From contig FMBT01000296.1 in the NCBI GenBank assembly GCA_900095095.1, positions 496,001 through 560,000 on the forward strand: a stretch of 64,000 nt of DNA. Direction: 5' to 3'. Origin of the DNA: Fragilariopsis cylindrus CCMP1102 (taxonomy: Eukaryota; Bacillariophyta; Bacillariophyceae; Bacillariales; Bacillariaceae). Positions 6,200 through 60,867 of the stretch are shown piece by piece. Position 1 is the stretch's first letter, and every line of letters begins with the position of its first letter. A model generated the notes under the pieces. The model made no database searches, was not told the origin of the DNA, and was given only the letters and a program-made list of their open reading frames with translations. A program made the translations under genes and the position numbers.

Positions 6200-6919
6200 A
6201 TGAAGTTAAATATCTTTTTTCTCTCTGCGGCCACCATGGTCAATGCTGTCAGTAGTACCCCCACGGTGAACCTTGGATCTGCCGAGGATTTCGTCATCCT
6301 TTCAAAGTCTGGCATCTCCACTGTACCCAGCTCGGTTATTACGGGTAACATTGCTGTCTCGCCCATCGCTGCGGGCGCCATTACAGGATTTAACTTGGCC
6401 ATGGACACTTCGAACACGTTTTCGACTGATTCCCAGGTCTCGGGCAAGGTCAAAGCGCCAGACTATACCACTCCCACTGGTCCTGAACTGACCACCGCGG
6501 TTAACAACATGGCGACCGCGTACAACGACGCCGCAGCACGTGCTACCACTGTATCAAATCTCAAAGAAGGTGTCATTGGCGGCGAAACATTGGGTCCAGG
6601 TGTCTATACTTTCGACACAGATGTTAACATCTCCGCTGATTTAACCTTCAGCGGCACCTCAGAGGATGTCTTTGTCATTCAGACATCGAAGAGCATTATC
6701 CAAGCCACAAGCACCCAAGTGGTTCTCGAAGGTGGTGCACTTGCAGAAAACATCTTCTGGGCGGTTGCCCAAAAGGTTACTGTCGGTGCAGATTCACATA
6801 TGGAGGGCATCATCTTGGCCAAGACGGCTGTTACATTCAGTAGTGGTTCTTCTTTGAAGGGCCGTATCTTCTCGCAGACGGCGGTCACCCTCCAGAAAGC
6901 AATCATCACTCAGCCATAG
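6200..6919 (+). CDS. Secreted ice-binding (antifreeze) protein, DUF3494 family
   Basis: A single-exon gene for 239 residues. Residues 1-16 (MKLNIFFLSAATMVNA) form a signal peptide. The rest is one complete DUF3494 ice-binding domain: LGSAEDFVILSKSGIS, ITGNIAVSPIAAGAITGF, AYNDAAAR, LGPGVYTFDTDVNIS, TSEDVFVIQ, NIFWAVAQKVTVGADSHMEG and the closing SSLKGRIFSQTAVTL. This is the right-handed beta-helix with a flanking alpha-helix known from sea-ice diatoms, fungi and bacteria. The product is secreted and binds ice, inhibiting recrystallisation. Length matches single-domain family members and no C-terminal anchor is seen. Base composition is clearly more GC-rich than the surroundings and there is no intron, in line with the established view that polar algae obtained this family by horizontal transfer. 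Whether this copy is thermally regulated cannot be read here. Confidence 0.95.
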   Translation: MKLNIFFLSAATMVNAVSSTPTVNLGSAEDFVILSKSGISTVPSSVITGNIAVSPIAAGAITGFNLAMDTSNTFSTDSQVSGKVKAPDYTTPTGPELTTAVNNMATAYNDAAARATTVSNLKEGVIGGETLGPGVYTFDTDVNISADLTFSGTSEDVFVIQTSKSIIQATSTQVVLEGGALAENIFWAVAQKVTVGADSHMEGIILAKTAVTFSSGSSLKGRIFSQTAVTLQKAIITQP

Positions 6920-21166: not shown

Positions 21167-22004
21167 GGTCAGATTTGTTTGTTTTTATTTATGATGCCTG
21201 TTTGACGAATTAATGAGAAGGGTATCTTTCTCTCCAGAATATACTGCCACAATAATAACCACCAGCCACAACCAGCAATTTTGAGTTTAAATTGAACTTG
21301 GATCTTCATCATTTACCAATCATGTCACGGTTGTATCATCAGATTGATTTGATTGATTGATTGATTCGATTTGTTCGCTTCTTTGCTTGATTGATCCGTT
21401 CAGAGTGATAGTGTGTATGCATTATTGATTGGCTTCGCGTATCATGCAGAATGGGTCGGTCACCTTCTCTTCTTTAAAGAACACATGTTCTGAAATTTTC
21501 AAAATCGGAATTCCATTTTTAGACTATGATCATGTCTGTGAACTTGAAGTGTTACAATTGAACTAGATACCGTACGATACAAGCCTCTCGCGGAGAGAAA
21601 AAAGAGCTTAAATTCAGTTTAATTATTGTACTTTCGGGTTCACTGTATCAAAATATATATTCGTCGAATCAACGTTGTTTTTTGTCATCGGTCGGTCGAA
21701 CAAAGAGAGCAAGCCCTAAACAAGTTCAGTATATTGCAAGGCACATCATGTGATGTTATCAGTACACCATGGATACACATTTTACGTCAACACAAACACG
21801 ATCGATTCAAAATTTAAATGCACGTGCGATTCGTAGGAATCATTTGAAAACAGTGTGCTTTGACGATTCAATCACACGTGCTTTGGTATAGAAAAATGAG
21901 AAATAGAACATTCATTTAAGGATTTTATAATCGTATTTAATATTATATTGAAGGGCAGGCGCAAGAACGAATACGGTATGCTCAAAAAAATGATGTGAAG
22001 TTAA

Positions 22005-22017
22005 GGTGGTATCATCA
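22005..22017 (+). repeat. Left terminal inverted repeat of transposon
   Basis: GGTGGTATCATCA directly follows TTAA. It is the exact inverse of 31659-31671. Beyond the 13 bp the two ends diverge, though both carry a GTGCGC motif a little further in. A perfect 9-bp hairpin (AAAATGGAC/GTCCATTTT) lies at 22060-22084 and may be a subterminal binding site. Confidence 0.85.
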
Positions 22018-22355
22018 GCGTGCGCCGAAAATCGCGCTACAACGCGTAAAAGCACGGTGAAAATGGACAATTCGTGTCCATTTTGGTTAGACCTATTGTG
22101 CTGGCAGTGTTCTCGTACACGCACCGTCCTATATATGATGACCTTCGTCTGCTCAACACGAATCTTTCTATGTCCAATTTGATTGGTGTTCAGCGCGTGT
22201 ACTAGGTGCTGTATATTTCTGAAACTCAAAAAGGTGGTTTTTAGCCGTTTTCTGCGAAAATAGTTCAAAAGTGTTTATCTACATCAATTTTTACGTTAAA
22301 CACTTAATACCGGTGGGGGTTATATTCTGCTAAATGAGTTCTACCCGTACGTCAT

Positions 22356-25071
22356 TCAACCGTCGTGATCCGAGCCTTGGGTGTCATCCAAATAGGGCTC
22401 CGAATCTTGCTCTAAAATCTCCCTTTCGAGTAGACAGCAATGGAATTGCGAATTCGTTAGGTCCGCTGTTGCCGCTGTTTCTTCGCACGAATCTTCAAGC
22501 GCGCATAGCTCATTTTCCTCAACGTTTGGATTGTTGGATTCCAACGTCCCTTATTACCGTTAGAAATAAAGAAAAGCAGAAGTACACTTCAGTAGTTTTA
22601 TGGATTTCTTTGTGAAAATTTGAATTATAATTACATACGCAGAAAACACGATTGTACCCGGTAGGATCACTCTTTTGTTGGTCGCAACGGTAAATTTCAC
22701 CACCGGCCAATTTCAACCCCCTCACATTATTCCTCCCATACCTCCCATCTCACATTTTGCACACAACCACTTACCGGTATTTTCATCTATTACACTTTCC
22801 ACTGGTTCGTCAACTAAATTTACTTCGTCGTGTTTCAACTCTTCAACCACCGTATCATCAGGTATACCATTTGGGTACTCTAATATCATGGCTTTAATTA
22901 AAGCCGGATCCTCACCCTCCTTCGTAACGTAATTTTTATGATACGGGCAATGTTTAGATTTGTTGACATGATCCTTTCTTTTGCAAAGCTTACAAGACGT
23001 CCTCTTTTTTTTCCCATCAATTGCTGCGGTAGTTACCTTTTTTTTTGCCTTTTTCCTTGTATTCAACGCTGCTCGTGATGTACCCTCGTTCAATCCCATT
23101 CCAGGTTTGTAAAATTCTCCTTTATCCTGTGATTTCTCCTCCTTTTTCCGATTCTCCCTCTTCTTTATGTTTTTCCGCATCATTCTTCTCCTTTTTATCG
23201 TGTCTAATTGGATGTAGTGTTTTTTGTAGGTCCTTTTTTTCTCTATATCCGTCCATCCCTTTACTCGTAGCAGATTATTTTCAAATCCCATTCTCTTATA
23301 CAATTCAACCATGGTGGATTTGTACCCGTCTGTAATAATACATACCGAGAAATGGACCCTACCTTTATCCGCTATTGTCGTTCCGAAATTCTTGTGTTTG
23401 GGCAAAAACTTTGTTACAACAAAGTTTGCTGATTCACTCAAATTTGTATTTACCTTATGGTGTATTTCTCGTAGTTGTTGCTCGGTGGTATAACGTTTGT
23501 GTATCTCCTTCAAGTTATCATACATTAATTTGTTTTTAACTTTGCAACGATAATGTAAATGATCCGCCGATTTTTTTGTATCAGTTAGCTTTTTAGCAGC
23601 GCACCACTCACCGCACAGTTCGTGATTATTAAAATGATGCTCTATAACTGGTGCGAATGCAGCACAGAATAAATTGAAATCCTTATCCACATTCTTAGCC
23701 CGAGCGTACGCAAAATTGACTTTCAATCGATCACGGTCAACACCAGTTACTCCCCCACTTTCCCCCTTCCTCATGTTAACTAACTTCTGAACTGCATTAC
23801 CGAATCCACGCACTCTGTGATTAGCATCCGCTTTACAGATAGGTTCAGGTATGTTCAGTTCAAGTGCACCGTGGTCGTTTTTGGTTGCTCAATTGGATGG
23901 TTGGCGTTAGGTCCTCCTTTCGACATAATCCTGCTTCTATCTTTTCTCTTCCATTCTGTTTTAGTCGGGCTCTCATACTGGAATCGTCATCAGTAACAAT
24001 AGTGCCTACAAACGCATCACCCTTGGAAAAAATCGATTGGATGCATTTCAAAAGCAGCATGAGGTTCCATTCCCTTTGCAGAACCTGTATAGTTATGCGA
24101 GCACAATTTCGGATCGTGTTCCAACTTGTGTTCACATTTTCGACAACGCGTGGACATCTGCTCAAAGTAGAGAATTTTATTCGTCTCTACTCCAAAAGCA
24201 AAAAATTGGGCTTGTTGTGCGTCGTAAGTTCTTCCGGAGCTACGCTTTCTCCATCCAGCATCCATAGATACGCCTATGTTTCGTTTTTTCTTTGGTCTTG
24301 GTCTCGCTTCTTGGTTTTCGTCCAACGAAACTGCATCTACTTCTAACGCGGGTGTATTGACATAGGGGTATTTTCACCCGCCTTTCTTTTTCTAATCGTA
24401 TCTGCAACGAGGTGCACCTCATCAGTGATTGGATCGTTGACCAATTGTGATTCCTTTTTTTCGTCGTTCAAGTTTTCTTTCAACTACTTCTTCCGCCATT
24501 TTTATTATGTGCAGAGCCATAGTTTCTTCATTGGATGTAAACGAGTCTAGCAATTGTCGCTGGCTGCAACATAGATTAAGCTGAGAGGCAACCAATGCGT
24601 AATCGTGTCCGCCACCTCCAATCATCATTATACCTAAAGTCAAGTCTAGATTGAGTTGATACTGTCGAGTAGCACGGTTACCACATTTTTTTATATCATA
24701 TGGATCGCACTTGTCGTCAACCAACTTATCCAAATCAACCATGGCTGGTTCCTTGACGGACCATTCGTTATATTTTTCACAAATCACATTCTTACATGCT
24801 AGACTGACCTTTGTAGCTATTCCGATAGTTTCGGCACAAAACTCCATTGTGTTCATTTTCCTGCATTTACAACACACTGTGTTTTCGACAAGAAGAGCAG
24901 TTATGCTCTTCCATGCAATTATTACATTCCGATCGTCACACTTGTTTACAAAAATTCGACCCCCCCCATCATTCACCCAATGTGCCAAGTTCAACCTATT
25001 TGTAAAACACCATGGATCAAATAATTGCTTTAACCTATTTGTAAAACACCATGGATCAAATAAATTGCTTC
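22356..25071 (-). CDS. MULE-like DDE transposase, frame interrupted
   Basis: Minus-strand blocks read in order: N-terminal part (about 25,031-24,422; FDPWCFTNRL, WVNDGGGRIFVNKCDDRN), catalytic core (24,325-23,860 and about 23,884-22,722), and tail (to about 22,356). Core motifs match the Mutator-like transposase domain: first Asp in IGVSMDAGWRKRSSG; a zinc-type CRKCEHKLEHDPKLC followed by NYTGSAKGME; second Asp in GTIVTDDDSSM; DANHRVRGFGN; HELCGEWC (the C/H insertion); and the probable catalytic Glu in NTNLSESANF. The tail has Cys-rich CKLCKRKDHVNKSKHC, a likely zinc knuckle. One frame change falls in an A-run near 23,880, and others are near 24,100-24,400 and 22,725. Some may be introns: a GTATGTAA donor near 22,630 with an AAG acceptor near 22,550 joins the tail in frame. 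Confidence 0.7.
24993..25071. repeat. 40-bp tandem duplication at the 5' end of the transposase
   Basis: AACCTATTTGTAAAACACCA and about 20 further bases occur at 24993-25031 and again at 25032-25071, with an extra A and one substitution in the second copy. On the minus strand both copies translate to FDPWCFTNRL, so the N-terminal segment of the transposase is doubled. Confidence 0.8.
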
Positions 25072-25867
25072 AACTAAAACAACATTCGTGGTTCACGTAA
25101 TAGTATTGTTTCCTTGTGCTCTGTTCTCTGTCAGTAGCGGAATCCATAACGAGCGCGGTGAACCATTTGATTCGACAACCAACGACCAGGTTGTGCAAAG
25201 CATCTATTCGAACCACGTATCTATACAAACCACACTCGTGTCAAATCAAACTGGACGGACAAGATTCAAATCAGTATTGTCATTCTTTCAAATTGTCTGT
25301 TGCTGTAATGCATCCTTTTTGTCGTTAACGGTTACGACGAGCCCATCGGTAGGTAGTACTGACTTACCCCCCAAAATCCGAAAAATTGCGCGCCTTTTCT
25401 GAATACGTGCAGGTGCTTGGTATTTATCTCCTATGAAATTGTAATAAGAATAGTTGAAAGATCTAATACACGCCGGCTATACAAACCTGTTGATAGTCTT
25501 CCAGGTCGATTCAAAAAACGCCCATACAACCGGCAACAAATCACATGTTTCCCTCCGTTTTCAACTCAATATCTAACACGGTTGCTTTCCAGAAAGAGAG
25601 GGACTTTCACCGGCCATCATTCGTAAGCATCAAGAGCAGGGCTGGATCTTCCGTTTGACAAATCAAAGCGTTAGCACCCCGGTTGTATACAACAATGCTA
25701 TAGTTCCCTCCATTTTGAACACGACCTACTTCTATCCTTTATTATTTTAGCGTACTAAAGTAACAAAAAGCACTATACTTGACCTAAATATTGTGGAAGT
25801 CGAACAATATGATCATAATTTGCAACTTCGTTCGACAAAACAGTAGTATCCAATTACAACACGTATC

Positions 25868-27133
25868 ATGTTGTTTTCTGTTGTTAATGGCTTTGAGCAA
25901 TTTTTATTGTCAGTCTCCTCTCATTTCTCGGATGAAACTATATACCTGCCTTACGACGATAAATTGGAACACCCGATCTGGATAGTCTCTCAATACAAAC
26001 CTCTTCAAGTTCCACCCATGTCGTATTTGCTGTATGAGGACCGTTCGGTAACTTTCACTGCTGAATATCATTTGCAGGAGGTAGATGGTGAACAGAATAC
26101 CATCCAGGTGCTCAAGAAGATAGTTCGAGTACATCTACCGTTTTGGACAAGTTACACAGATTGCGTAAAAGTAATCCACACTCTCATGGGCGGAGGCAAC
26201 CCCATTTACAAAGAGAGGGAAAGTGATTTATTCACTGAGCGTCGAATGGTTATTGGAGGCATTGCTATCCTCCACGAGTTTGTGTACAATATTAACAACC
26301 TCAAATCGTTTTCCAAAATTGAAGACTACCCTGAAATCCACGCTGGTTCACAGAACAGGTCTGGTATATACGAAATGGAATCGTATATGAGTTTAGATCG
26401 AGAATTTGATGCCATCTGCAACAGGCTGCACAGATGGGTACCAACAGTCCCTACACAGGAGGATGTTCCACAGGTCGAATTTGAGAAGGTTGATTCCTGG
26501 TCGCTCTGTTACTCGAGACAAGAAACATGGAAAGAAACACACGCTCGTATTAACGAACAGTGCAAACGATTCCGTATTACCAACTTCAAGGAACCAACAC
26601 GAATGCTGTGCTATTACAGCCCCGGTGGAAATTCATCCAGGCAAAATTGCACCCATTGCAATTGTCATCCTTGTGCTTGGGAAATCAATAGAGTAGAGAT
26701 AATTCGTAATGTTAACTCTATGCGAGGTGAAAGCAGGTACTCGGCCAATGAACGTCGCTTCCTTGGATATCGTTTTTTTTACTTCATTCTTCACGACGGA
26801 TATGGCCCTATAAACAAGCGCGTTCCTCTCCCTCGTTGTGGAACAGAGGCAATTAAAAAGGAATGGCCAAATCCACCCGGTGTCGGTTTCACCGGGTTCA
26901 AGCTCCACCGTCGTCGAACCAATACCGTGCGTGCTGTTTCTTCTCCACAAGCTAGATTACCCGCGGATGTTTCCACCAGGCAATCGATCTGCCGTCCCCG
27001 TCAAATCAAATACTACATCGATCCCAAAAAAAAACCAAACGAGGTAATCGAGATTCACGACGAAGTTCAGATCAAGATTGAAAAAGGAGTAAAGGAGGTA
27101 ATTGAAATTGAAGACGACGACGACGACGAGTAA
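25868..27133 (+). CDS. Transposon protein with P2X7-type C-terminal (ballast-like) domain
   Basis: A 421-residue intact ORF with ATG at 25868. The N-terminal two thirds match nothing I know (DKLEHPIWIVSQYKPLQVPP, VHLPFWTSYTDCVKVI). Residues of about 260-345 resemble the P2X7-receptor intracellular domain: NCTHCNCHPCAWEI (Cys cluster, then W), NSMRGESRYSANERRFLGYR ('R...Y..F'), LHDGYGPINKRVPLPRC ('hG.lg...R..iP.C') and IKKEWPNPPGVGFTGFK ('Ir..fP...g.y.GF'). In P2X7 this domain holds a dinuclear zinc site and a guanine nucleotide pocket. The C-terminus is a charged tail ending in an Asp run. It sits head-to-head with the transposase, about 800 bases apart. Its role in transposition is unknown. 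It is one of the better preserved genes in the element. Confidence 0.65.
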   Translation: MLFSVVNGFEQFLLSVSSHFSDETIYLPYDDKLEHPIWIVSQYKPLQVPPMSYLLYEDRSVTFTAEYHLQEVDGEQNTIQVLKKIVRVHLPFWTSYTDCVKVIHTLMGGGNPIYKERESDLFTERRMVIGGIAILHEFVYNINNLKSFSKIEDYPEIHAGSQNRSGIYEMESYMSLDREFDAICNRLHRWVPTVPTQEDVPQVEFEKVDSWSLCYSRQETWKETHARINEQCKRFRITNFKEPTRMLCYYSPGGNSSRQNCTHCNCHPCAWEINRVEIIRNVNSMRGESRYSANERRFLGYRFFYFILHDGYGPINKRVPLPRCGTEAIKKEWPNPPGVGFTGFKLHRRRTNTVRAVSSPQARLPADVSTRQSICRPRQIKYYIDPKKKPNEVIEIHDEVQIKIEKGVKEVIEIEDDDDDE

Positions 27134-27524
27134 ACAAAAGAAATTGAGGATGATTGAAATGTGATAACAGTAACCGATTGAGATTGATGAGTAAATGTAA
27201 TGAACGACGATGAATAAACCACTGGTAAAAAAGAAAAAAAGATTAAGCAAAAAAGCAACACAGAAGAAAGATAATAAAAGAGAACTATATTTGTAATGAA
27301 ATCTAGTTCTACTTTCTTTATTAGTTAGTTGTATAATAGGCATACTTGGTTGGTTTGTGCATAAACCAAGTAACTTTTAACCTATGTGAATTCTGACCGT
27401 GTTGATTGTATAGGTAGCGAGCTTGGTGGTGATGACATCCACCAGGTTGTATAAAACTCAATTGCTATGTTCCAATAATTACTGTTCCAATCCTATCCGT
27501 AAACGATGTTTCAGTGTACTCATG

Positions 27525-30002
27525 TCAACATAGGCGTTGATTGATTTTATTTTCTATTCTTTTTCTCCTTTTTCTCCTTTTCCTCCTTTTCCTCCTTTTT
27601 CTTCTTTTCTTCTTTCTCTTCTTCTTTTCATTATTGGTGTTGTTATCAGCACCTATTCTATTATCACTACTATTACCACTAGCGCTACCATTTACAGAAT
27701 CGGTGGTGCGAGCACTATTACGTGCGCTCAATAGCGCTTTCACCGTCAAATGTTGATTGTTTCCGCCCCTTGCGACATTCGACCCCGTCGAATGTTCGTC
27801 AACAGTTGATCCGTTCGTTGTGGCATTTAAATTAAATAGTTGTAATATTTCTTTGATTTCGTCGCTGTTGCTCTTGCAAGTACCCGTCGTCACTACTACC
27901 GCGGACGATTCGCGGAGGTGTTGTTGTCACCCTCACCGACTTTCAACCCCGTCGAATGTTGTTGTCCGCTAGTTGCTGTTTCCGCATCGTCAACAGTTGA
28001 TCCGTTCGTCGCGGCGGTCAAATTTCCTGAGTTGCTGATACCTGTTTCGGCAGATGTATTGTTTGTGCCCTGTGCGACATTCAACCCCGCATCATTAGCA
28101 GCATCCTCTGCGTTGGCCTGACCTGTTTTCTCACCGTGAGCAGGTGGTTCGTTCGTTTTGTCATTTAGATTTAGTTGCCCGTCGGATTCAACCCCAGCGA
28201 CATCCAACCCCGTCGGATGTTGTAGTTCAATGACTGTTTCCTCACTGTTAGCAGTTGGTGCGTTCGTCGTGGCATTTAAATCGACCAGATCCTCCGAATC
28301 TTCCAGATCGTCCGGATCGTCCGCATTTTCATTAACAGTTTTTCCTGCTTCGTTTGTTCTCCAAAAATGGGTGAGTTCATCTATGTCGGTTGCCGTGTGA
28401 TTGACATAATTATTTTCTCCGTTGGTTTCACTTTCCAAATACCTTTTAAACTCATCTAAGGCCTTGGGTCGACCATATGCCATCGCAGCTGTTTTTTTTC
28501 TTCGGCATAATGGTTCGTATTTGTGTCCAACCCCATTGATGTCGGTAATTTGTAGAAGTATAAATTCTTGTGATGGAAACTCCATACCAGGACGCTGACT
28601 GTATCTGTCGAAGACGTTCGTCATAGTTTCCACATTTGCTTTCAGTTTTTTTCGTTGTTGGCCAGCCATACATGCGGCGGGTGTAGTCCAGGTTCTCTTT
28701 GCCTATATTCACGCAGTGACGCACTGAATCCTTTCTCAGTCCACAAACCGTCATCCGTATAATTCTGTTCACTCCATTCTCCGTTGTCTGGTATGCCTGC
28801 AGCCTCAATGTTATCATCACCATCATTCTGTACCATTGGTTCATCCGGATCAAGTGTATCATCACCCGGGTCGTATATCGAAACACTGTCCGATTTACTT
28901 ACCGAATCATCTTCATCTGATGAGTGATGTGCTACCTCCACTGATTGGGTTGGAGGTTTCTTCTGTTGAGATATCAGAATTCTTTCACTTCGTCTCGGTC
29001 CCAAATTCTGACCTGGTTGAATTTGAGTATGATCAGATTGTGATAGGGCAAAATTCGGACCTAGTTGATTATCACCTTGATTTAAACGCAGCAAAAGCAA
29101 CCTTCTTTCGCTTTGGTACAGCGGGTACAGCAGGTACAGCGGGTACAGCAGGTACAGGCGGTAAAATAAGGGATGAATCTTCTCCAAGCATTCCCTCGGG
29201 AACCTTAATCCATTCGACTCCATCCACTGCCGACTTGTTTAATTCTAAAAATCCTTTTTCAACGAACATATCGACAAATGAACCACAAGCAACAAATGTC
29301 ATTCCAATCGATAAATTGTTTTTCAAAAGGGTCATGCCTTTGTCAAACATTTCGTCGGAGTTGTTATATGCATGGTGACAATGACACCCGGTAAAAATTT
29401 CAACCAGGTGAAAGATCAAACCGCCGCGAGACTCGAGGATGTTGGTTCCAAAGTGATGTCGAATTTGAACAAGGAATAACCGTTGCAGTTCAAGGTGTGC
29501 CGCTGGGGCTACAGATAGGTAAGGAAAACTGTCAACCAAGATTGTTAGTACATCTCTCGATGCAAGTATCTCGTTCGACAACACCTCTTCTTCTTCTAGA
29601 TGTGATATTGTCTCGTCCAACTCTTTGCTGAATTTGACGGTGAAATCTCCTATAACAGCCACGAATTTCAAAAAATAATCGTCGTTGTCGCTGGCTAAGG
29701 GTGAGATGTCCCCCGGTTGAAGTTCGTTGATTTGCTCCACACCCGCTTCTAGTACAATTCCTTCCATACTAGCCAATGTTGGAAATTTTTCTATTAAAAT
29801 GTCCAAGAACTGTTGCTGGACTATATTTATCCAACCGTTGTGATAAAGGAAGATGATTGTCACTCTTCCAAAATAATTTGAAATCGGTATCGAATGTCGC
29901 CAATTCGGTAGTTCGCTCTTCATCATTCATAGCCTTTACCAAATCATGAAGATCGGGAGGTGGATATGATGCTGATGCTGCAGCATCGTGAAGGATGGAC
30001 AT
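27525..30002 (-). pseudogene. Long accessory transposon gene, unknown function, frame interrupted
   Basis: Minus-strand blocks from a likely ATG at 30002 (MSILHDAAASASYPPPDLHD) to about 27,525. The first block (about 30,002-29,072) is a helical, non-repetitive domain: FPTLASMEGIVLEAGVEQ, DYFLKFVAVIGDFTVKFSKE, RLFLVQIRHHFGTNILESRG, CHCHHAYNNSDEMFDKG. It ends in a PAVPAVPAVP repeat. The second (29,223-28,642) is acidic with PRRSERILISQQKK. The third (28,669-27,896) has a short conserved-looking part (FDRYSQRPGMEFPSQEFILL, YEPLCRRKK) and then a degenerate repeat region, in which ATTNGSTVD/NATTNAP and QHSTGL/QHPTGLDV recur. The last (27,893-27,525) repeats that theme and ends in a Lys/Arg run. 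Frame changes fall near 29,850, 29,070, 28,650 and 27,895, mostly beside short runs. No family recognised. Confidence 0.45.
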
Positions 30003-30602
30003 GGTTATTGAAAAACGCAGTAGTTGAAAACTCAAATGAATTATATGATTAGTGGAATATGAGACAATCGAAAGGAGGCTTTCGAATGTTGTTCTTTTTG
30101 AGATGTGAGAAAAAGGAATTAGGAGGAGAACTACGATGAAGGAAGTAGGAAACAGTCCATGGAAAATACCCATGAGTTGTCGTAACAGCCAGTATCGGAG
30201 TGGTTTACGAATTTGGTTTTCAAAAAGAAACGGAGTGATGGGTTTATGATGTCAACCGTTTTTTATTTTTCAGTACGGGATGAATGAATGGTTACAATAT
30301 ATATCGTGGAGGTTGTGTCACAAACGATAATATGGCGCGCCAGTCGGTTATTTTTGTTCACACGGTGAAAAACCGTTGAAAGATGTTATAATAATAACTG
30401 AGGAGTAACGATCCACACCACTACTAACATTGTGTACAGTACTGCGTCGACGTCAGACCTATGGTGGTAAGCGTAGATCCTGTGTACTTCAACCTGGTCT
30501 TGTGTTCTTCACCCTGGTCAAATCCCACATGTAACAATCCATACCAAAGGTGTTTTGACTGGATATTTAGGACAAAACATAAAAACAGACAGTAATCTCA
30601 TC

Positions 30603-31040
30603 ATGAATACGTCTTATTATTCCTTAGACCAGTCCACCATCAACGATTTAAAATCGGGTGGACTGACCATGGTGACGATGCAACAGGGTGAAATGGGTAT
30701 CATGATGTTCACCTCCCCGAATGAATCTTTTCGGTACAACGATAATTGCATTACTTTGAAAAGAGAAATCGCCGCATTGAACAAAGAATTTGAAGATGGA
30801 AATGTTGGAAAGAAAGTATACTACAAAAACGTGGCAAAATGGTGTAGCAACGTGCTTCATTTTGCCAACGAATGGAGTCCTCATCGTGTGCCATTCGATA
30901 TTCGTGATGGTTACGATGACTGCATGAACACCATTGGTTGTACCAGCACAATGACATGGCCTGACAAAGTACAGATTCCATTGAGCGAGTTGCCTGATGA
31001 AGCACGAAACGAGATAGTCGCATCATACACCGTAATTTAG
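30603..31040 (+). CDS. Small transposon-encoded protein, unknown function
   Basis: An intact ORF; the likely start is ATG 30603 (MNTSYYSLDQSTINDLKSGG), giving 146 residues, with an upstream in-frame start near 30555 also possible. Composition is balanced, not repetitive, so it looks truly coding: FTSPNESFRYNDNCITLKRE, FEDGNVGKKVYYKNVAKWC, HRVPFDIRDGYDDCMNTIGC. There is no signal peptide or membrane span. It is convergent with the small ORF at 31166-31393. I recognise no family. Confidence 0.5.
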   Translation: MNTSYYSLDQSTINDLKSGGLTMVTMQQGEMGIMMFTSPNESFRYNDNCITLKREIAALNKEFEDGNVGKKVYYKNVAKWCSNVLHFANEWSPHRVPFDIRDGYDDCMNTIGCTSTMTWPDKVQIPLSELPDEARNEIVASYTVI

Positions 31041-31165
31041 TCGATGCAATATAAATGATAGGTAATAGTTTTAATAAAATAAAATCCAACTAATACGAAT
31101 AGCCATAGTATAGTAATAAATGAAATGTTTCTTAAAATGTATACTAGTGTCTTATTTAGTTACAA

Positions 31166-31393
31166 TCACGAACGATTATTCTGGACCTTTTTGGGAAAAA
31201 CCCGGGTGATATCTGCCATTGGTGGATTACAACTATAGTCCATATGGTTGTCGATGTAACAGTGAACAGAACTGAATTTGTCTGGTTTGAAACCGGTAGT
31301 GATACCAGAATCATCTTCCGTTCCAGTGTTGTTAGTTAGGGTAAAATAAAAAACACTAGGATCGGGTGAATACACCGTGGTGTGATATTGCAT
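31166..31393 (-). CDS. 75-residue ORF near the right end of the transposon
   Basis: Starts MQYHTTVYSPDPSVFYFTLT and contains HCYIDNHMDYSCNPPMADIT, with two Cys and no simple repeats. Being so short, it may be an exon or chance. The 280 bases between it and the right inverted repeat contain an A-rich tract and no better candidate. Confidence 0.3.
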   Translation of the reverse strand: MQYHTTVYSPDPSVFYFTLTNNTGTEDDSGITTGFKPDKFSSVHCYIDNHMDYSCNPPMADITRVFPKKVQNNRS

Positions 31394-31658
31394 ATTAACT
31401 CTTGGGAAGAGATCTCGTCGGACTTTATTCGGGGTTCGGTCGACGTTTTTGTATGGTACTTAGTACGAAAAATTGGGTGGGCGTTTATTTTACTGTTACA
31501 AGAGAACACCTACAGAAAGGGAATCGCAAAAAAAAAAAACACGAATATACAGGATTTGATTTTAAAAAAAAGGATATCAAAGACGGTGATAATCGATGGG
31601 GGTGAAATTCCAAATTCCGTGATTTTTGGACTCATCGCGCACCATATCGAAGGATTCG

Positions 31659-31671
31659 TGATGATACCACC
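31659..31671 (-). repeat. Right terminal inverted repeat of transposon
   Basis: TGATGATACCACC precedes TTAA (31672-31675) and is the exact inverse of the left end at 22005-22017. Confidence 0.85.
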
Positions 31672-32103
31672 TTAATTGATATTTTATTGTGAAATTAAAA
31701 ACAAACGATTAATTGTTACGTGATGTAACAGAAGCAAGCAAGCTATAAAAGAGAACAATAAAAGTTCGCACCCATCCCAATAACAGAACAAGGCAGATTG
31801 TATGTGGTGTTCCTTCTGATTCCGCGTCTTTTTCAATACAACCTACTCCAAAACAAATACCGTACTGTACTACTGGAACACCTGTACTAACCCGTTAACA
31901 TCACAATCACAAGCAACCTACAGTTTATTAATAAAAAAGCTGCTCTTGAGCGTGAATTATAAGAGAGAAAAGAAAAAGAGAGAAATAAGAGTGTGTGAGA
32001 GAGAGAAAGAGAAAGCGATTGATTCGATTAAATTCATTCAATTCACGCAAAGTCAAAGAAAGTCAAAAGAAAGTCAAATTCAAATTTTAGATTTTAAATT
32101 AGT

Positions 32104-58158: not shown

Positions 58159-60867
58159 ATGCAAATCCAATTTACAACGATCACCTTCGCATTACTTGCG
58201 TTAGCGGGTCATATTGCTTTTGCTAATGAGTGTCTACAAGATAATCTTGGAAATGGATTCTCCTCAGCAATACATGATCCGTCACTCGGTGATAGTCATT
58301 ACGGACAAGCTGACGAAGGAATGTGTTACCCGAAAGTCCATTCGTTAGGTAGTGGTGTATCTGGTAACGACGATGGTGTCGCTATGCTTGTAGGAGGTAA
58401 CTACGTTGGAGTAAAAGGTGCAGAAATTGAAGGAAACATGGTCGTTATGGGCAATTTCCGTGTAGAACAAAATGGACCATCGAATTTTGTCTCTGTAGGA
58501 GAAGGAACGCAAATTACACCCCATAAGGGTGGCGAATGTATTAAAGTTGGTGGAGATATGTCATCAGCGAAACGAATGGAAATCTTCTATCCACACTATT
58601 CATGCACCGCCGTTGTTAAGGGACGACGTGACGACGTCAACAAGATTGCACCTAAATGGATGACAGATAGTGGATTTGAATACAAGCAAGATTCGAATCT
58701 TGATATGACCAAGTACGAACAACAGATTGATAGTTTGAGAGCAAAGTCGGCATACTGGTCAAGTCTACCAACAACTGAAGGAGCTTCATATGGTGTATCA
58801 TCTCGAGCATTCAACATCGAATGTACAGATGATGATGTCGTCCAAGTTTTTAATATTGAAGCATCCACATTACAAGGACAAGGATACGATACGTATGTTT
58901 TCAATGAAAACTGTAGCGACAAAACGGTCCTGATTAATGTCCAAGGAACTGGTAGTGTCAAGTTCACAACGAAGCATACGAAATGGACAAAGGATGGACA
59001 AGTTCAATCTGGTGGATGGGCCAATTTCCCATCATGTATGAATTCGGCTATTTTATGGAATTTCCCGAATGCTGTTGATGTTACTGTTGAGGGTTATGAT
59101 GAACTTCAAGGATCAATTCTGACTACGGGAAATCTTCATTGGAAAAGTGGTAGTGGACAAAGTGGTCGTACGATGGTTCTGGGAGATTTGGTCCATGATT
59201 ACGGGGGATCAGAGTTCCATTCTTTCGAATTCAATCCTCCAAAGCCCCTACCAGATCCAAACTGTGAAGAAGTTTCTCCTCCTACAATTTCCGATTGTAA
59301 TGGTGAAATCATTGAGACGTCGTCCATTACTTCGTTAGATTTTTTCAATAGTGTCGTTACAAAAAATACATTACATTTAGAGGGTGGCGAACTACGATAC
59401 GAAAGTAAGTTCTAAAAAGATGTTTGTCTGAAGGATTATTACCATCGTACTATTTCCTTGTCAAATAACTAACACAAATCCCCTTCTTGTTTCACTCTTA
59501 TTCGAACAATAGATGTTGGCATCGTTCGTGACCGAGAAGTAGATCTGGTCGTTACTATTACAGGAGGTGACTACACGGACATCGCTGATGTTTGGGAAGA
59601 GAGAGGAAAAGCTGTTGACAATATGAACGGCAAGAAGCCAGATAGTACGTTTGCCAATATTAATCTTCAAACAGTACTAGGCAAACCAAAATCAGGCGAG
59701 GGAAACTTTAAGTTCTGCTTTTATGATAAAGGAACGGAAGAATTGACAAAAGTTGATACATTCCGTTGGACTGTATTTGATACTGATGAACGTGGTGGCG
59801 GAATCAAAGAAAAGATGCTTATGGATGTTAGTCAAGCTGTATCATTTCAATTATGGCCTGATACAACAAGATCTGAGATCAATACAATTTGCGAAGATGG
59901 AAGTTCTCTACCTTGTAATTCTGGCGTTCGCACTATCTTCCATTCTTCTACTGTCGGATCCGGAAAGGATAATCCTACCGACCCTAACATGATGACAGAC
60001 CAACAAAAATCTCGAAGTGTTACATTCACATTCACTGATACTGATTGTTGGGAATTTACATACGATCATTATTGTCCTTCCGAACAGCTCGATTATGTTG
60101 GCCAAGATACAGTCTGTAAGAGTTACTCTGGCGGCAATTTTCTATTCAGTGGCGATTCAAGTGAAATCATCAACGAGGGAGAGTGCGTTGTATCACCACC
60201 ACCACCACCACCTAAGCCAACAAAAGAGCCAACGGAATCTCCTACTTTGGCTCCTGTTGTTCCTATCACTGAATCACCAACGAAATCTCCTACTTCATCT
60301 CCTGTTGTTCCTATCACTGACTCACCAACTGGATCGCTCGAAGTTTTAGGCAGTGACGATGATGATGATTCCTTTCTACCGCCATTGTGTCCCGTCGATA
60401 TCACCATTGTAAAAAAATCTGGTGAAACCGATTTTCCCGCAGAAAATAATCCCGTTGTTACTATCTTATCTCAAGATACATCGACTGTTACGGTTGCCCT
60501 TGCGCAAGAATGGACTACCAAATCAGTAGATTCAATTTTCTATGATTACAAGGTAGATATTTGGGCGAATAAATGTTTCGCTGAAACTGATGTCAACGGC
60601 GGTGCTGTATTTGATACAATCACTATCAGTTGTAATATTATGACACCAACAGCGTATCTTCAAATTTGTGTTGCTGATAATATTTCGAATGAAATCTTAT
60701 CAATTGGTGATGATGCAACCATTCCAAAATGTTGTCATTCAGAAGAAGTTGCTCCACCAAATACACCAAAGGTATGCTACTCCCTCGAGATTCGTTGTGA
60801 AAGTGCATGCATCGACGAATCGGAAAAACGTCGTACGTTACGTGGATCTTCTTCGAAGAAGAATTAA
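58159..60867 (+). CDS. Secreted adhesin-like protein with choice-of-anchor A domain, two exons
   Basis: Exon 1 58159-59404 and exon 2 59513-60867 join in phase across a GTAAGT...ACAATAG intron (108 bases) into 866 residues. Residues 1-22 are a signal peptide (MQIQFTTITFALLALAGHIA). The first 400 residues match the choice-of-anchor A fold: AMLVGGNYVGVKGAEIEGNM, VVMGNFRV, VINVQGTG (from a strand), SAILWNFPNA, LQGSILTTGNLHWKSGSGQS and GSEFHSFEFNPP. In bacteria this domain sits in surface adhesins. Exon 2 adds beta-rich segments, ending in a Pro/Thr/Ser repeat (PPPPPPKPTKEPTESP, PVVPITESPTKSPT) typical of diatom wall and mucilage proteins, and a Cys-rich C-terminal domain. No membrane anchor. Likely a frustule, mucilage or ice-adhesion protein; the exact role is inferred. 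Confidence 0.75.

Follow-up and report, generated by a model that had tools for sequence, protein, structure and literature searches.

The window analyzed here is a stretch of 64,000 nucleotides from the diatom Fragilariopsis cylindrus CCMP1102 (contig FMBT01000296.1), in which positions 22001 to 31675 form one TTAA-flanked unit of 9.7 kb. The element proper, which we consider a transposon of the Kolobok type, runs from 22005 to 31671. As the initial annotation had recognized, both ends consist of TTAA followed by an exact 13-bp inverted repeat. Between the ends lie a transposase gene and three further open reading frames (ORFs), ORF-B, ORF-C, and ORF-D, which are present in all eight near-full-length copies that we compared. 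The features are as follows, with the number of copies in which each accessory frame is open:

22001..22004, no strand: left TTAA target duplication (sequence; a single TTAA in the empty alleles of sister copies)
22005..22017, plus strand: left 13-bp terminal inverted repeat (TIR), GGTGGTATCATCA (sequence; 41 exact TTAA+TIR 17-mers in the genome)
22722..24972, minus strand: transposase, Kolobok-like (PF20700; mapping and frames), broken in the window by one-base length differences
25868..27133, plus strand: ORF-B, 421 aa, with a cysteine cluster; open in two of eight copies (window, C276)
27547..30002, minus strand: ORF-C, 827 aa in C742, with a lysine-rich C-terminus; open in one of eight copies (C742 only) and broken in the window
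30603..31040, plus strand: ORF-D, 145 aa; open in five of eight copies
31659..31671, minus strand: right 13-bp TIR (sequence)
31672..31675, no strand: right TTAA, putative target duplication (sequence)

The four additional coding blocks that had been annotated on both strands thus correspond to extra genes on both strands, but these number three, the minus-strand blocks between 27.5 and 30.0 kb being a single 827-aa frame.

The host assembly (67,884,144 bases in 818 contigs) was searched for the 17-base end, that is, TTAA plus the TIR; copies are named by contig, and the window copy is C108. Exact matches numbered 41 (19 forward and 22 reverse), while the 17-mer pattern read backwards gave none. 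Twelve of these ends belong to six full-length copies with two exact ends (the window copy, C91, C276, C390, C516, and C536), and four are single ends of the long or partial copies C742, C416, C40, and C559; contigs C40 and C559 begin inside the element. Another 22 ends delimit eleven miniature inverted-repeat transposable elements (MITEs), and three are single ends at C52 (a remnant of about 66 bp of a MITE right end), at C91:978628 (a remnant of 23 bp), and in a diverged MITE at C297. Within the window, the 17-mer with up to three mismatches occurs three times, the third match (21325) carrying all three mismatches; 100 dinucleotide shuffles of the window gave a mean of 0.32 matches, and three matches were reached in 1 of the 100.

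The eight near-full-length copies differ by 0.05 to 2.14% in substitutions, plus 10 to 51 length differences each, mostly of one base, and their gene layout is identical. Other copies share both ends as well as gene content with the window copy. Together with the empty alleles described below and 27 silicon-transporter matches over the cut-off in the genome, which indicate a diatom, this bears out the initial proposal of a mobile multi-gene TTAA element in a diatom. The flanks of the long copies fall into six distinct left and six distinct right sequences, which suggests that these copies occupy six sites; the element family is apparently young. The MITEs (609 to 671 bp, mutual identity 76 to 100%) have only the left ~290 bp and the ends in common with the long element. 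Apart from the TIR, the MITE right half matches nothing in the long element (loci L036 to L046 and L051:148-802). Near flanks are the same within the MITE pairs C80/C543 and C574/C608, which may be alleles or duplicates, and nine MITE sites remain.

Empty sites were searched for with the joined flanks of these nine MITE sites and with twelve one-sided flanks of the long copies. Alleles with a single TTAA were found for three of the nine MITE sites, namely C237 (empty allele at C80, 100%), C42b (at C517, 97%), and C388 (at C157, 78%), and also for two full-length insertions, the empty alleles being at C523 and C205. C523 is the empty site of the C516 copy, and the C205 empty site corresponds to the left flank of C390 joined to the right flank of C40. 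In this element family, the TTAA pair is a 4-bp target duplication.

The window copy is located well within a 735-kb contig. The right flank of this copy is also found in C91, C390, and C536, and each of these contigs stops with that flank some 6.0 kb beyond the element (L031, L033, L035); one left flank is common to C276, C516, and C742. In the C205 empty allele, the left flank of C390 is joined to a different right flank, which shows that the right flank of C390 in the assembly is not its own. Judged from the sequences, the shared flanks are likely chimeric contig ends at a long (9.7-kb) repeat; since flanks were borrowed, element letters were possibly borrowed too, and the 0.05% difference between the window copy and C91 may understate their divergence. 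One further locus, L066 (C638:1950-9200), is similar to the C276 right flank (96%) and has a weak match to the C416 left flank (79%); the two matches are separated by about 7 kb that contain no element sequence.

The transposase is open over 749 aa in C91 only, one of the eight copies in that reading. Its true start possibly lies upstream in another frame, as five copies stop at codon 9 of the 749-aa reading; in the window, a frame is open upstream of the transposase to 25069. A 39-bp tandem duplication (90% alike) occupies 24990-25067, within this upstream open frame. The Pfam family PF20700, unmentioned in the open-access literature searched, matches the window transposase piece at E 1.7e-17 and the open C91 copy at E 8.4e-29, and its 11 matches in the genome at E up to 1 all fall in the eight copies of the element. 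Variants among the transposase copies lean toward synonymous changes (33 synonymous, 54 nonsynonymous including 3 stops; p 0.002). A protein search adds two transposase remnants, one at C242 (77% over 54 aa) and the other at C694 (42%). At two loci (L057:6196-9061 and L058:5634-8476), remnants of a related transposase are accompanied, at a distance of no more than about 1 kb, by long ORFs of a single other family that share the string CGCEPCIQM, in differing relative orientation; these two loci are perhaps another mobile element.

In the part of PMC9587614 that defines it, the Kolobok superfamily has TTAA targets, RR...YY ends, a C/DxxH motif, and, in nearly all lineages, a zinc finger between D2 and E, and a CCHC cluster after D1 is given for KolobokP, KolobokE, KolobokD, Kolobok5, and a few others. 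The termini of the diatom element are GG...CC, an instance of 5'-RR...YY-3'. Read by eye, the C91 protein contains D238, a CCHC cluster (C277, C280, H286, C291), an aspartate at D328-330, DANH (D382xxH385), H450/C453/C457, and E513, and this apparent motif order agrees with the description in PMC9587614. We conclude that the element is very probably a DNA transposon of the Kolobok superfamily, autonomous and probably mobilized by cut-and-paste, and that the superfamily suggested in the initial annotation on the grounds of TTAA is supported with the addition of the GG...CC ends and the motifs.

A Mutator-like element (MULE or Phantom) sitting at TTAA is the alternative evoked by the name of PF20700, Mutator-like transposase, which is the sole Pfam match. 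The gene had indeed been annotated as a MULE-like DDE transposase; a transposase-like protein is present, and the Mutator-like label goes back solely to the name of the Pfam family. MULE target duplications measure about 8-11 bp, whereas the duplication seen against the empty alleles is the 4-bp TTAA. Moreover, no Pfam family besides PF20700, and hence no other transposase family, matched the C91 protein at E up to 10, a search in which the HMMER filters drop most weak hits, and the CCHC and the second H/C cluster are as PMC9587614 describes them for Kolobok, so we regard a MULE or Phantom as improbable. A piggyBac-type element, from the other TTAA superfamily, would have the same target and the same duplication, and KolX-like proteins are noted in a few piggyBac families in the passages on them in PMC9587614. 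The same source sets the RR...YY ends of Kolobok apart from piggyBac, and the GG...CC ends of this element, along with the lack of any piggyBac transposase family in the Pfam search up to E 10, make a piggyBac origin very improbable.

Several points weigh against an autonomous, cut-and-paste Kolobok transposon. The flank search of the host assembly yielded no empty allele for the window copy; the duplication read initially from its TTAA pair is seen at the sites of sister insertions, and its own insertion and TTAA duplication are putative. Excision was not seen, and the empty alleles also fit sites that were never occupied. Membership in Kolobok is likely rather than certain, being judged from TTAA, the GG...CC ends, and motifs compared by eye with published descriptions. 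THAP domains are usual in Kolobok transposases according to the relevant part of PMC6004289 and do not figure in the definition as worded in PMC9587614; the open C91 frame, whose N-terminus is possibly incomplete, gave no THAP match at E up to 10. Most copies have broken frames, and the one-base frame differences suit long-read assembly error and decay alike. Finally, the signal of selection on the accessory genes is weak: synonymous and nonsynonymous variants number 11 and 19 (1 stop) in ORF-B (p 0.085), 21 and 45 in ORF-C (p 0.13), and 1 and 3 in ORF-D (p 0.65); pooled, the three give p 0.034.

For the accessory proteins B, C, and D, nothing credible emerged from Pfam, PHROGs, NCBIfam, or the PDB sequences (best E values 0.024 in PHROGs, 0.13 in NCBIfam, and 0.34 among PDB sequences), and Pfam detected no nuclease, exonuclease, or helicase domain in any of them. 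Viral relatives were not confirmed in four IMG/VR protein scans with six short peptide patterns each; one degenerate pattern returned 10 IMG/VR loci, and at E up to 0.01 none of these matches the transposase, B, C, or D. Relatives of ORF-C occur at C83 (53% over 161 aa, within an open 736-aa ORF) and C772 (39% over 139 aa, one stop), and the stretches examined there contain no transposase, B, or D alongside. Those of ORF-D are found at C89 (72%, open) and C384 (58% over 134 aa), with weaker ones at C439, C164, and C197; relative to C89, dN (nonsynonymous divergence) is 0.15-0.16 and dS (synonymous divergence) is 0.26-0.36, depending on the method. A further candidate, C311, matched in one search and was absent in the repeat.

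B, C, and D might be host genes that the element picked up as passengers and that play no part in transposition. This would account for the relatives of C and D elsewhere, on four contigs (C83, C772, C89, C384) none of which has an exact 17-mer end, and would agree with the weak selection on all three genes. Against it, the layout is kept in all eight copies compared, and nothing beyond the element copies matches ORF-B below E 0.004. Furthermore, at C89 and C384 the similarity continues beyond ORF-D (544 and 442 bp, 84% identical in DNA), so these relatives may be debris of related elements. We consider capture of passengers less likely than not.

ORF-B can be compared with KolX, a protein of the animal Kol0 lineage to which PMC9587614 links the P2X7 ballast domain in the passage concerned. 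The C-terminal stretch of ORF-B (residues 264-346) resembles the KolX/P2X7 ballast motif. Of the 12 positions in the third-cluster consensus given in the relevant part of PMC7016195, ORF-B matches 7, with the spacing shifted by one residue, and 146 of 20,000 ORF-B shuffles (~1%) did as well. The motifs CxCxxC and R...YR.F, both upstream, keep the order that they have in P2X7. A relaxed motif, written after seeing ORF-B, found only ORF-B copies in 827,454 six-frame residues and was reached by 0 of 20,000 shuffles. In pairwise alignment, 2 of 500 shuffles reached the score of ORF-B with BLOSUM62, and 7, 22, and 13 of 500 did so with BLOSUM45 against three P2X7 sequences; hhalign gave P 0.009 but a probability of 4%. 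Folded alone, ORF-B has a mean pLDDT (predicted local distance difference test) of 31.7.

Other results speak against a KolX relationship. With the published consensus in exact letters, five unrelated sites among 210,890 residues equal or exceed the score of ORF-B; ORF-B has no second cysteine cluster; and PF20478 does not match it, though the model finds P2X7 at 3.5e-58. In Smith-Waterman comparisons of 263 ORFs of at least 150 aa, unrelated ones scored 59, 48, 47, and 46, compared with 47 for ORF-B. On sequence grounds, we therefore hold a KolX-like zinc protein to be possible, with the balance somewhat against it. The broader proposal, that ORF-B may be a true KolX/P2X7-ballast relative in a diatom Kolobok with a CCHC transposase and that ORF-C and ORF-D would each represent a new family of Kolobok accessory genes, is more tentative still. 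If it were true, KolX-like proteins would have long accompanied transposons that target TTAA, either predating animals or having spread outside them, and the tail of the P2X7 receptor would derive from a wider KolX-like stock, with a domain not confined to animals.

Among the lineages described in PMC9587614, those with a CCHC cluster (KolobokP, KolobokE, KolobokD, and Kolobok5) resemble the diatom element in TTAA and RR...YY ends and, as read by eye, apparently also in a DDE with C/DxxH, the zinc cluster before E, and the CCHC after the first D; the lack of nuclease, exonuclease, and helicase domains in B, C, and D is a difference from them. Unlike KolobokP as presented there, the diatom element has no His-Me nuclease family match in Pfam, and long terminal direct repeats are absent from the 20 largest of its direct-repeat families (at least 60 in all), where the longest unit is 48 nt. 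Kol0 with KolX (the Kolobok-1_XT type) shares the combination of a transposase and a second protein, and ORF-B may be KolX-like, a resemblance that is only suggestive. The diatom transposase, however, carries a CCHC, which PMC9587614 assigns to other lineages; the element has two genes more; and Kol0 is described there from animals. The Xenopus Koloboks (XKol) with their T2-MITEs, as covered in PMC6004289, are alike in TTAA, full length, and short MITEs with like ends, whereas the frog transposases carry THAP, which was not detected here. Ten full-length Xenopus elements span 6,763-13,907 bp (PMC6004289, Table 5), so the length that the initial annotation had found remarkable is ordinary.

The superfamily and the host group are already known: Kolobok is listed for Fragilariopsis cylindrus in PMC9587614 and reported from the diatom Cyclotella cryptica in PMC7466962, in passages that give no gene content. 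Kolobok lineages are distinguished in the literature in part by their accessory genes. The set B, C, and D was not found in the open-access literature searched, a scope that lies outside Repbase; the undescribed Kolobok subgroup suggested in the initial annotation is a candidate reading.

In the mechanism we propose, the minus-strand transposase would be a DDE enzyme carrying two zinc-binding clusters. It would bind the element ends, excise the element, and insert it at TTAA, and would also mobilize the MITEs with the same ends. The B, C, and D proteins would assist or regulate transposition; the lysine-rich tail of ORF-C might perhaps be a nuclear or chromatin tether and ORF-D a small regulator, both of which are guesses. 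Being apparently young and multi-copy, this protist element, with its three accessory genes, its MITEs with shared ends, and empty alleles in the same genome, would offer a workable test case for accessory roles.

Elsewhere in the window, 6200-6919 encodes an ice-binding protein (PF11999, E 6.6e-60) and 58159-59415 an ice-binding-like adhesive domain (PF20597), which suggest that the host is cold-adapted.

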